24,505 nt of DNA from a virus, in IMG/VR virus record IMGVR_UViG_3300032245_000005, positions 1 through 24,505 of that record. One strand, given 5' to 3'. Made by a program: the position numbers and the translations under genes. The notes under the pieces are model-generated. The model made no database searches and was not told the DNA's origin. It worked only from the letters and a program-made list of their open reading frames with translations. Every line of letters begins with the position of its first letter. Within the stretch, counting starts at the first letter, position 1. This document shows, one piece after another, positions 16,835 through 21,450 of this stretch.

Positions 16835-17860
16835 TTAATTCACAGTATCAATGACTTGCCATTGAGGGTCTTCAACATTGTTTATGTCCGTCCAGCCCGC
16901 TGATTGCGAATCATCTATATTTTGCCAGTTTGCTGTCTGACTGTCATCTATCAATGACCAGTAGAAAGCCGCAAGAGTTCCTACATATCCTTGGGCTGAA
17001 TTTCCAGTCAATGCCTGTGAAATGCTAAACCCAAGAGTTCCAACATCGCCATTTGCGTTTAAACCTGTAAGTGCCGCCGCCTTGCCGGGCAAGATAGTCC
17101 CAACAAACCCAGACGCTATATTGCCACTCAGCGCAACAGAGACTGTTACTCCTGCCGCCCCTACACTACCACTAGCCGTTACACCACTTAGGTCTACAGC
17201 CATTGATGGAGTAACTGACCCTACGAATCCTGACGCAACATCGCCTGACTCTACAGGCGCTACTTGCGGAGTTAATGTTCCTACAGCCCCGGAAGCCACA
17301 ACACCCGTCAGTGCCACCGTGATGGTAGTGGTAACGTTACCAACAAAACCAGAAGCTATATCTCCAGCCTGTGTGGGGGATATGCTTGGAGTTACCGCTC
17401 CTACCGCACCCGATGCAGACTTACCCGTTAATGCCTGAGATGCTGTTGGAGTAACCGCGCCTACGGATCCAGATGCCAAATTACCAGAAAGAGCAACTGA
17501 GAAACTAGTGGTAACGTTTCCAACGGCACCAGAGGCCGCATCTCCCGTCAGAGCTACAGACTGTGTTCCAGCAACAGATCCAACCGCTCCAGAAGCTGTT
17601 ATGCCTGTCAGCGCTACCGAGAAAGTCGGTGTAACAGTGCCAACAAATCCTGATGCAATATCCCCGCTCTCAGCCTGTGAGCTACTGGGGGTTACTGTTC
17701 CGACTGCTCCAGATGCTGTTACGCCTGTGAGGGCTACAGAACTGCTTACGCCTAATGTACCTACCGCTCCTGATGCCGCATTACCCGTTAAGGCGACAGC
17801 AACCGTTACCCCAGATAGCGAGGCAAACGGCGTTTCAGCAAAAGCGGAGATACCAAACAT
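16835..17860 (-). CDS. Repeat protein: fourteen 20-residue ASGAVGT units, virion adhesin/structural (341 aa)
   Basis: The N-terminus MFGISAFAETPFASL is a typical phage fibre-region start. Residues 22-301 are 14 uninterrupted units of exactly 20 residues with the consensus VALTGxxASGAVGTVTPSxS. Some units carry the variant ESGDIASGFVG, and the last ones degenerate. The C-terminal 40 residues form a second short repeat of about 11 residues, each beginning with Trp (WSLIDDSQTAN, WQNIDDSQSAG, WTDINNVEDPQ, WQVIDTVN). A regular beta structure is likely. No SD lies directly before the ATG: GGAGG is 21 nt upstream, beyond a hairpin. Fibre or virion-decoration role inferred from neighbours. Confidence 0.85.
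   Translation of the reverse strand: MFGISAFAETPFASLSGVTVAVALTGNAASGAVGTLGVSSSVALTGVTASGAVGTVTPSSSQAESGDIASGFVGTVTPTFSVALTGITASGAVGSVAGTQSVALTGDAASGAVGNVTTSFSVALSGNLASGSVGAVTPTASQALTGKSASGAVGAVTPSISPTQAGDIASGFVGNVTTTITVALTGVVASGAVGTLTPQVAPVESGDVASGFVGSVTPSMAVDLSGVTASGSVGAAGVTVSVALSGNIASGFVGTILPGKAAALTGLNANGDVGTLGFSISQALTGNSAQGYVGTLAAFYWSLIDDSQTANWQNIDDSQSAGWTDINNVEDPQWQVIDTVN
16958..17797 (-). repeat. Array of 14 coding repeats, 60-bp period
   Basis: 840 bases encode 14 units of 20 residues without any length change. The DNA copies differ at many third positions, so protein-level selection, not recent duplication, keeps the pattern. Confidence 0.9.
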
Positions 17861-17888
17861 GGTCTAAACGGCTTTGAGCCGCCTCCGC
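17861..17888 (-). promoter_or_regulatory. Hairpin-spaced Shine-Dalgarno for the repeat protein
   Basis: Reading the minus strand: GGAGG (17882-17886), then a hairpin CGGCT-CAA-AGCCG (17881-17869), then TTTAGACC, then ATG. The linear spacing is 21 nt, too long, but with the 13-nt hairpin folded out it becomes 8 nt. No other SD is visible near the ATG. Confidence 0.5.
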
Positions 17889-18365
17889 TTATGTTGTAGA
17901 GATACGCAGTAAAGCGGTAGTCGTTGTGTTTGAAGGCATCGTCAACGCAAAAGTACCAGCAGTAATTGTTTGATTACCAAAGGTATATACGCCAACAGCC
18001 TTGTTTGACTGGCTTGAGTTATACATAAGCATCGCATTGAAAGAAGTTGTCAATGTAACGTTTGTGTAGCTGATACTCGCCGAGGGTGTCCAATAAGCCA
18101 CGCCAGCTGTTGCAGAACTGTTAGTCGAGGCAGGGGCAGTAGCGTTTGTGATTGTCACGCCACCAGCCGTGTAGTTAGTTCCAGTCACTTCACCCGTGGC
18201 TGAATAGACTGTAGTGGAGGCATCAATTGTGGCGCTGGTCAAGTACAAAGCCGCCTTGAAGGTGTCTGCTGTAGTTGCCGCACGGATAGGTGCTACGCCA
18301 AAGTTGTGAGTTGCAGTTAGCGCTTCGGCTAAAAACGAAGTGCATAGGGATGCGGTATTTGCCAT
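17889..18365 (-). CDS. Small beta-rich structural protein, paralogue of the 138-aa neighbour (158 aa)
   Basis: Contains DTFKAALYLTSATIDASTTV, YSATGEVTGTNYTAGGVTIT, ending in FGNQTITAGTFALTMPSN. These align with the protein at 18563-18979 (DTIKIALYTANVDLNQDTTV ... GYTAGGYTLTG ... FTITMPAN). I recognise this family as a small conserved virion protein of podovirus-like phages; the precise place in the particle is not known to me. ATG is preceded by AAGGAAATATT. The protein is nearly free of charge in its C-terminal half and Thr/Ser/Ala-rich, as usual for beta-sandwich decoration or tail proteins. Confidence 0.8.
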   Translation of the reverse strand: MANTASLCTSFLAEALTATHNFGVAPIRAATTADTFKAALYLTSATIDASTTVYSATGEVTGTNYTAGGVTITNATAPASTNSSATAGVAYWTPSASISYTNVTLTTSFNAMLMYNSSQSNKAVGVYTFGNQTITAGTFALTMPSNTTTTALLRISTT

Positions 18366-18377
18366 AATATTTCCTTG

Positions 18378-18566
18378 TTAGAAAGTGCCTACTTCGCCAC
18401 CGATTGGTAGAGATCTTTTCAAAGTCACATGGGCTGAACGGTGAACCAGTTCACCCTCTAACCAGTATTCAACCCAAGTGGTTAGTTCGTTATCGTCTTC
18501 AAATGTTCCCTCTCGCTTTTCCAGCAAAGAGTCATCCATTTCGCCTTTAGTCGTTGTTACTATCAA
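18378..18566 (-). CDS. Small acidic phage protein with TTG start (62 aa)
   Basis: The sequence includes DDSLLEKREGTFEDDNELTT, WVEYWLEGELVHRSAHVTLK and ends RSLPIGGEVGTF. No known domain is recognised. The start is TTG at 18564-18566, overlapping the stop of the upstream gene as TTGA and preceded by a perfect AGGAG with 6-nt spacing (18573-18577). An internal ATG at residue 10 has no comparable SD. It sits between two paralogous beta-rich proteins and is probably co-made with them, perhaps as a partner. Function unknown. Confidence 0.72.
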   Translation of the reverse strand: MIVTTTKGEMDDSLLEKREGTFEDDNELTTWVEYWLEGELVHRSAHVTLKRSLPIGGEVGTF

Positions 18567-18979
18567 TTTGAACTCCTGATAAGTGCCGCTGTCGGCGTAT
18601 TGGCCGGCATCGTAATTGTAAATGTGGTGGTGGATGTTTTATCAGATCCAAAATCTAAAACACAAACAGACTTATTGCCCTTGCTTGCGTTATAAAGCAA
18701 CGCACAACGAGCAGTCAAAGCCGCATTCCATGTCACATTATTCCAATTTACATAGGCCGTGTAGTCAGAAGAGCTGATTGATACACCAGTTAATGTGTAG
18801 CCACCAGCCGTATACCCAGATGCAGACACTTCATTTGTAGTTGAATACACAGTCGTATCTTGGTTTAAATCAACATTAGCCGTATACAAAGCTATCTTGA
18901 TAGTATCCGTAGATAGATCATGTATGCCTTGATACAGTTCTTTCTTGAAACTGGTGGTCTGGGTTTGAACTATGCTCAT
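18563..18979 (-). CDS. Small beta-rich structural protein (138 aa), paralogue of the 158-aa neighbour
   Basis: The N-terminus SIVQTQTTSFKKELYQGIHD and the block ALYTANVDLNQDTTVYSTTN with EVSASGYTAGGYTLTG are of a small virion family I know from podovirus-like genomes. The last third (ALLYNASKGNKSVCVLDFGS, TFTITMPANTPTAALI) corresponds to MLMYNSSQSNKAVGVYTFGN and FALTMPSNTTTTALL in the 158-residue paralogue. ATG overlaps the adaptor-like gene stop (ATGA). No membrane segment is present. It probably forms part of the tail or head surface; this is inference. Confidence 0.82.
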   Translation of the reverse strand: MSIVQTQTTSFKKELYQGIHDLSTDTIKIALYTANVDLNQDTTVYSTTNEVSASGYTAGGYTLTGVSISSSDYTAYVNWNNVTWNAALTARCALLYNASKGNKSVCVLDFGSDKTSTTTFTITMPANTPTAALIRSSN

Positions 18980-20098: not shown

Positions 20099-20515
20099 CT
20101 AAGTTACGCTTACCGTTACTGTACCAACACTTGTCGTTCCCACCAAGTTATTTGGCGTTAAACCTACATCAAAATTGCTTGATCCACCCACTGGATACCA
20201 ACCCCATTGAATATCTCTAGAACCCCCCGTAGGGTAGCCACCAAAGCTATCGTTTGGATTGATCTGCAATCCATTCACACCAGCCGTTACATAAGTAGTA
20301 TCTTTCCTTGGTTCTCTCAAAGCCTGTGGATCCTCTACTGGGTACATACCCAATAACAACTGTGGCTGATCTGGATCCCAGCACTCAGGGCAAACCTTTA
20401 GGTCATACCGCTTTGTCTTGATAACCTCTGTCTTTAACTTTTTGAGCTTGTACTGCTGACCACACCGATCACACTCGGCTATGGCAAATTTGCCAGAGGC
20501 GAATGTATTACCCAT
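20099..20515 (-). CDS. Zinc-ribbon phage structural-region protein (138 aa)
   Basis: Residues 15-45 carry two CxxC knuckles: Cys15 and Cys18 in AECDRCGQQY, Cys42 and Cys45 in KVCPECWDPDQ, spaced like a zinc ribbon. The following PQLLLGMYPVEDPQALREPR is conserved in a family I recognise from aquatic podovirus-like phages. The C-terminal half is Gly/Asn/Thr-rich (DSFGGYPTGGSRDIQWGWYP) and looks like a flexible beta tail. Its start shares one base with the upstream stop (TAATG). Zinc binding is predicted from the four cysteines; a role in neck assembly is inferred from position only. Confidence 0.82.
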   Translation of the reverse strand: MGNTFASGKFAIAECDRCGQQYKLKKLKTEVIKTKRYDLKVCPECWDPDQPQLLLGMYPVEDPQALREPRKDTTYVTAGVNGLQINPNDSFGGYPTGGSRDIQWGWYPVGGSSNFDVGLTPNNLVGTTSVGTVTVSVT

Positions 20516-21450
20516 TAGGGTGTACTCCCACCAATGAACTGCTGTCTAGGCACAAACCGCAATGGCGCTTTCTCATGGTCTTCACCAGCCGCCAAATTGA
20601 ACTGTTCATCGTATGCTTGTTTCAGCATATCCAAACGTCCTTGTAACTCAGGCACTTTCATGGCTATGTAGTAAGCCAATCCTGAGACAACGCAAGGCAA
20701 GAAACGAAAATTCATATCAGATACCTGCACACCAGAACCAGCATCTTGAATCCTACGCATTCTGTAGTAGACAAACTGGTAAGGGGTAGAGTTATCTGGG
20801 GTTGGCCATACTGTTACCGCAGGTAGCTGGGGTACATACACGGCTGTTCCTGTTGTGTGCGTAGCCGCCGTTGTGCCTGACTGCCCACGGAATACATTGC
20901 CAATAGTATTGCCGTCAATGTAGTTGTAATACATGATCTCCGAGTCCAACTTAATGAACCCAGATCCAGCCAATCCAGAAGTAGAACTTAGCGTAATTGT
21001 TGTGGCACTAGTGGTAACGTTTCCATTGGTAGTCAAACTAGTTGGATTAGTCTCCCCAGACAAACGCTGAATCCACACTTGGATAGGACGAGCCTGAGTC
21101 AGTTTATTGGGAATAGTGGCATAGGTAGAAACACTAATACGGCTGATTGTTAGGTCAGCTTGTGTGCTTACAGAGTTAGCACCAGTACGAATTACATGGT
21201 CTAACAGATCAATAGTATCAAGTGGCAAAGAATAAGTATTCAATCCCGGCGTTAAATCAATTACACCCTGCTCAATCGTCCACATATTCAAGCCACGATT
21301 AGACCATTCAATGGTCATTATGTTCATGGATCTACGGGCAGTCCTTAGATCGTAGCCTGTACGCATTTCTCGACCCGCACGTTCCCACGCTTCCTCGGCA
21401 ATCTCCGTGAAGTCCATGTTGAAGGCGGTTGAGCCAGTGGTGTAATTCAT
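20515..21450 (-). CDS. Head-tail connector-like structural protein with inserted beta domain (311 aa)
   Basis: The helical N-terminus FNMDFTEIAEEAWERAGREM, YDLRTARRSMNIMTIEWSNR and GLNMWTIEQGVIDLTPGLNT is typical of a connector or tubular protein family in podovirus-like phages. At about residues 133-207 a Thr/Ser-rich beta module is inserted (TTSATTITLSSTSGLAGSGF, SEIMYYNYIDGNTIGNVFRG). The flanking sequence then resumes as LPAVTVWPTPDNSTPYQFVY. The C-terminal helix LQGRLDMLKQAYDEQFNLAA precedes APLRFVPRQQFI. It is coupled at its start to the 82-residue gene (ATGA). Connector role from family resemblance; ring position inferred. Confidence 0.83.
   Translation of the reverse strand: MNYTTGSTAFNMDFTEIAEEAWERAGREMRTGYDLRTARRSMNIMTIEWSNRGLNMWTIEQGVIDLTPGLNTYSLPLDTIDLLDHVIRTGANSVSTQADLTISRISVSTYATIPNKLTQARPIQVWIQRLSGETNPTSLTTNGNVTTSATTITLSSTSGLAGSGFIKLDSEIMYYNYIDGNTIGNVFRGQSGTTAATHTTGTAVYVPQLPAVTVWPTPDNSTPYQFVYYRMRRIQDAGSGVQVSDMNFRFLPCVVSGLAYYIAMKVPELQGRLDMLKQAYDEQFNLAAGEDHEKAPLRFVPRQQFIGGSTP

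Follow-up and report, generated by a model that had tools for sequence, protein, structure and literature searches.

How the start codon of a gene is found when its strong Shine-Dalgarno (SD) sequence lies 21 nt away was the question raised by a gene junction in the tail-gene region of an environmental phage. The DNA analyzed (the window) was a 24.5-kb IMG/VR fragment of 24,505 nt with genes on the minus strand. At the junction, a gene for a 158-residue protein of the PHROG 644 family, the function of which is not known (17889-18365, minus strand), is followed by a gene in the tail-fibre gene region (16835-17860, minus strand; ATG at 17860-17858). The latter encodes a 341-residue protein that begins with MFGISAFAE and carries SVALTGVTASGAVG-type repeats and a W..ID.Q C terminus. 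This repeat protein had no Pfam or PHROG match, and relatives of it are common in IMG/VR. The two adjacent genes at 17889-18365 and 18563-18979 both matched PHROG 644, apparently a duplicated family beside the tail-fibre genes.

Geometry and SD strength of the repeat-gene start

The stop codon of the PHROG 644 gene and the ATG of the repeat gene are separated by 28 nt (GCGGAGGCGGCTCAAAGCCGTTTAGACC, minus strand). The element abuts the TAA (17891-17889), and the leader then reads GC, GGAGG (17886-17882), CGGCT-CAA-AGCCG (17881-17869), and an 8-nt spacer, TTTAGACC (17868-17861), directly before the ATG. This spacer contains an in-frame TAG two codons ahead of the ATG, which rules out an upstream in-frame start and fixes that of the repeat gene. 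A first-pass annotation of the window had proposed that the hairpin between GGAGG and ATG restores a normal SD spacing. The distances it gave were confirmed on the minus strand: from GGAGG to the ATG there are 21 nt, and the 13-nt hairpin, with arms CGGCT (17881-17877) and AGCCG (17873-17869) around the loop CAA (17876-17874) and extendable by a G17882-U17868 pair, leaves 21 - 13 = 8 nt. The annotation had also seen no other SD, and this was borne out by SD:anti-SD energies, which were -10.95 kcal/mol at the 21-nt spacing versus only -3.0 kcal/mol for the best site at normal spacing, defined as 3-11 nt. The start thereby combines a strong but too distant SD with the lack of an adequate near one. 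Its remark that nearly every other gene has a standard SD was roughly right, as about 25 of the 31 other scorable window genes scored -7 or lower at the listed or a nearby alternative start. The gene at 20515-21450 has an SD as weak as that of the repeat gene, but its start overlaps the upstream stop.

Hairpin length and SD spacing in relatives

About 400 loci were gathered from viral contigs (IMG/VR) by protein scans and pattern scans. The hairpin-bearing set comprised 169 dereplicated junctions with 75 unique leaders, in which the hairpin occurred in two forms, one of 11-13 nt (type I) and an elongated one of 18-20 nt (type II). In the 68 unique type I leaders, the linear distance between SD and ATG was 18-23 nt, and the effective spacing after subtraction of the hairpin was 6-10 nt, most often 6 (37 leaders) or 8 (16 leaders); the spacer between hairpin and ATG measured 6 to 8 nt throughout type I. 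The type II hairpin, CGGC-GGG-GTAA-CTC-GCCG and variants, is built on the same CGGC/GCCG base and lies in leaders with a linear distance of 26-27 nt and an effective spacing of 7-9 nt. Across both types, linear distances of 18 to 27 nt were reduced to 6-10 nt. No strong SD lay nearer the start in six type II leaders (L044, L051, L289, L297, L301, and L338), and in three others (L033, L041, and L082) the 3' end of the hairpin offers GGAG or GGGG as an alternative SD. At the same junction, 31 leaders without the hairpin had their SD 5-7 nt from the start. The gap between the two genes was mostly 8-12 nt without and 25-33 nt with the hairpin, and two of the leaders, L142 (GGGGTAGACCATG) and L093 (GCGGGGTAGGCCATG), look like the element with the hairpin excised. 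According to the first-pass annotation, relatives that kept the start and lost both hairpin and GGAGG would have spoken against bridging. This pattern was not seen; relatives that lost the hairpin retained an SD at normal distance.

The annotation had further suggested a search for compensatory changes in the stem, and these were found: the stem covaried, and the effective spacing stayed stable as hairpin length changed. The covariation score of the stem was 0.218 versus 0.109 for shuffled alignments (0 of 500 as high), and it collapsed once the partner strand was slid. The inner core CGGC/GCCG was invariant within the type I set, compensatory change residing mostly in the flanking pairs and in type II, which, taken by itself, had U-A for C-G and G-U for G-C exchanges in the stem. 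A GNRA loop was rejected as a defining feature, since only 11 of 35 four-base loops conformed. Taken by features testable in sequence, namely a strong SD out of reach, a stable hairpin that leaves a normal spacing (8 nt in the window), and conservation or compensation of this hairpin in relatives, the repeat-gene site would belong to the split-SD kind known from T4 genes 25 and 38. The bridging reading is well supported by the strong comparative evidence, from which we infer that the hairpin restores SD spacing in vivo.

The hairpin might instead be incidental to an SD-independent start that relies on S1, on a weak SD, or on the terminating ribosome to reinitiate. The upstream stop is just 28 nt away, and some other phage genes of the window have weak SDs, but a strong G-rich SD core at near-constant effective distance was present in 68 of 68 type I leaders. 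Moreover, reinitiation beyond about 20 nt was very weak in the tested gene pairs of Escherichia coli and H. volcanii (PMC10666635), so direct reinitiation across 28 nt is unlikely by these published distance tests. We consider an SD-independent start very improbable.

Distribution of the element

The pattern GGAGGCGGC-N3-6-GCCGT-N1-5-ACCATG was found almost exclusively before the MFG repeat gene. A covariance model gave one strong copy per locus and none in the window beyond the one described; further copies in the same genomes were rejected on this ground. When a mechanical test for a bridged SD was applied to all collected loci, 59 of 494 unique junctions passed, 57 of the 59 before the repeat gene, which is over-represented in this count because the loci had been collected via it. 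As the remaining junctions of these loci hardly ever passed, neither the hairpin nor its position is due to chance. Relatives were found neither in cellular genomes nor in a DNA-level search of phages, and the phage collection searched contained no cultured phage with the element. The bridging hairpin was absent from HTVC027P and CRP-207, cultured relatives of the upstream gene, and from DSL-LC04, the sole cultured match of the repeat protein. A search of the window against Rfam yielded no match at the gathering threshold, and a known Rfam regulatory RNA was rejected on this basis.

An inverted repeat acting at the DNA level, as a recombination junction for the exchange of tail genes or as a protein operator, would require no RNA spacer at all. 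The same upstream gene does precede different genes (MFG and GWG types), and the junction is therefore a module boundary. The element, however, occurs almost only before the MFG gene and not at all exchanged junctions, its loop varies freely, G-U pairs are frequent, as expected of RNA, and codons of the repeat gene take part in the outer pairing described below. Of the explanations considered here, a DNA element is the one to which we give the least credence.

Predicted fold of the junction RNA

Folding of the junction RNA, as proposed in the first-pass annotation, gave -23.3 kcal/mol for 61 nt versus a shuffled mean of -11.8 kcal/mol (z -4.5), with the claimed hairpin present. The hairpin described in the annotation is part of the minimum-energy fold; the annotation had left out that this fold also joins the SD to codons 4-7 in the repeat gene. 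In this prediction, an outer helix of 8 bp joins AAGCGGAG (17883-17890), a strand that includes the SD core and reaches into the stop codon, to CTCCGCTT (17842-17849), that is, codons 4-7 with Ser5 = TCC; hairpin and start codon lie inside it. The third arm of the resulting three-way fold is a weak start-codon hairpin, ACCA-TGTT-TGGT (17852-17863); 93% of the cells in this arm were paired across relatives, yet they are largely constrained by the MFG codons. GGAGG is buried in the lowest-energy fold, with predicted probabilities of being unpaired of 0.00-0.07. In structure-based translational coupling, SD or start is sequestered in a helix, and by prediction this is so here. Besides the window, three divergent type I members folded alike.

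The probability of the inner hairpin was computed under the constraint that the SD side and the initial 15 bases of the coding sequence stay single-stranded, mimicking the initiation complex. Its median was 0.98 across relatives and 0.83 in the window; in a few relatives (L135, L230, and L223) the hairpin was predicted to lose against competing pairings. When the SD alone was held open, the window RNA was computed to be able to refold in a competing way. Thus, persistence of the hairpin would depend on the ribosome covering the first codons, too.

Conservation of the outer helix

Leaders paired better with the codons of their own genes (mean -9.9 kcal/mol) than with those of permuted partners (-8.4 kcal/mol, S.D. 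0.28, 0 of 10,000; the permutations ignore relatedness). Pairing with the native codons was -10.4 versus -6.7 for synonymous draws from window usage. TCC encoded Ser5 in all 86 type I genes that have this residue versus 2 of 19 hairpin-less MFG genes, and TCC is rare, accounting for 38 of 562 serine codons in the window. The same codon was used in 8 of 8 type II genes, although several of these lack a clear outer helix. Leader and codons varied together (GCGGA/TCCGC, GGGG/CCCC, CGGGGT/AACCCC, and ATGCGGGA/TTTCCGCAT). In hairpin-bearing L028-L030, L135, and L259, the outer helix was missing or weak, and several type II leaders had no clear counterpart of it. Leader and gene start may travel as one cassette, and for this reason the shuffle p values overstate independence. 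On the tree of the upstream gene, 4 supported independent pairs bore on the helix, all in its favor (4:0, p 0.125 with only four pairs). The outer pairing appears to be largely preserved, by leader-coding covariation and a near-obligatory rare TCC. Because this GGAGG is sequestered by a conserved helix of its own besides the bridging hairpin, the junction region is, on the predicted folds, probably also a translational lock.

An outer helix unique to hairpin-bearing genes was rejected, as some complementarity between SD and codons is also present in hairpin-less MFG genes from other phages. In L292, L339, L344, L370, and L384, AGAGGAGGGAC leaders are strongly complementary to codons 5-8 (AGTCCCTTCTCC or similar), which suggests that SD/early-codon pairing is common in the MFG protein family.

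These data invoked the idea that the hairpin is mainly part of a repressor, one arm of a fold that hides SD and start for the purpose of coupling and is melted rather than bridged during translation. Such a role would accord with the burial of GGAGG in the lowest-energy fold, with a codon choice that maintains the outer helix, and with the unrelated hairpins (CCGACTC/GAGTCGG; AGGAGG-TAA-CCTCCT in HTVC027P) by which other relatives sequester the SD at the same junction. Once the hairpin is melted, however, GGAGG lies 21-27 nt from the ATG, which is too far; several type II leaders lack a clear outer helix yet retain the bridging hairpin; and the hairpin-less relatives have their SD at 5-7 nt. 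A mainly repressive structure is rather unlikely, though it deserves more weight than either of the two alternatives discussed above.

Proposed mechanism

We favor, with a probability of roughly 0.7, the reading that the ribosome-binding site of the repeat gene is split and hairpin-bridged and carries, in addition, a lock opened by ribosomes finishing the upstream gene. The distances, the predicted helices, their conservation, and the hairpin-less relatives on which it builds are all taken from sequence. In the closed state, the SD strand would pair with codons 4-7, and the three-way fold would enclose hairpin and start codon and hide the SD; the outer helix would thus act as a repressing element. 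The stop-to-SD gap was 2-4 nt in 64 of 68 type I leaders. Because the 5' strand of the outer helix begins on or immediately behind the upstream stop, a ribosome terminating on the TAA would occupy this strand and melt the helix. In the open state, the anti-SD would sit on GGAGG with the 13-nt hairpin still folded beside the ribosome and the ATG at an effective 6-8 nt. Translation of the repeat gene would in this way be tied to translation of the PHROG 644 gene. That the upstream ribosome opens the lock is suggested by this geometry and by the RNA-unfolding model of coupling (PMC12548453); structure directly after a stop codon can also reduce coupling (PMC12548453). The feature itself is real and conserved and is probably functional.

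Comparison with known systems

In T4, a hairpin brings the SD from 22 to 5 nt at gene 38 and from 27 to 11 nt at gene 25, the latter at an intercistronic junction, and stem-destabilizing mutations lower initiation at both genes (PMC3014915, reviewing Nivinskas 1999 and Malys and Nivinskas 2009). The first-pass annotation had drawn the comparison with gene 25. It is apt as far as a distant SD bridged by a hairpin is concerned (PMC3014915), the SD lying 22-27 nt from the AUG in the T4 genes and being brought to 5-11 nt by intervening RNA, and it is incomplete in that a second helix here is predicted to sequester this GGAGG. Unlike in T4 genes 25 and 38, the SD at this junction is also predicted to pair with codons 4-7, and the family has long, short, and absent forms of the hairpin; its phages and genes are unrelated to those of T4, and its bridging is supported by sequence comparison. 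The lock resembles structure-based translational coupling by RNA unfolding, as in MS2 coat-lysis and f1 VII-IX (PMC12548453), with coupling proposed here; in contrast to these pairs, the enclosed structure also contains a spacing hairpin. In T4 genes e, soc, 49, and I-TevI (PMC3014915), SD and/or AUG are likewise paired within a helix. Those structures are described as inhibitory on their own, whereas here the SD is predicted to pair, next to a stop codon, with codons of the very gene it serves, in a helix that encloses the spacing hairpin.

Bridging is known from T4, and the combination as well as the natural variant series look new. No report combining a bridging hairpin with an SD/codon lock was found in the open-license literature, several relevant papers being available by subscription only. 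It is a tentative proposal, less secure than the reading of this single start, that a composite switch is widespread in environmental phages, in which a spacing hairpin lies inside a helix that uses early codons of the gene to lock the SD and is unlocked by the upstream ribosome, after which the spacing hairpin would bring the SD within reach of the start codon. In the literature searched, T4 genes 25 and 38 are the main basis for hairpin-bridged SD sites. The dozens of natural variants (short, long, and no hairpin) that an unrelated phage family has at one homologous junction amount to a natural mutagenesis series, usable to measure how far ribosomes tolerate a folded spacer. Bridged starts would be misjudged by gene callers and by expression models that rely on linear SD distances. 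The pairing between leader and codons points to translational control of a gene in the tail region, and it limits the choice of synonymous codons at the gene start.

Other structures were observed at the same junction. GWG-type genes that follow the PHROG 644 gene (L118, L119, L122, L123, L145, L146, L150, and L153) are preceded by a different stem, CCGACTC/GAGTCGG, and the GWG-type gene of L111 by CGGCTC/GAGCCG. In all of them the SD lies within the 3' arm, and a GTG start follows at about 7 nt; the SD is thus sequestered there, too. In Pelagibacter phage HTVC027P (L403:4439-4456), AGGAGG-TAA-CCTCCT, a perfect SD-sequestering hairpin, stands immediately 5' of the ATG of the gene after the PHROG 644 gene.
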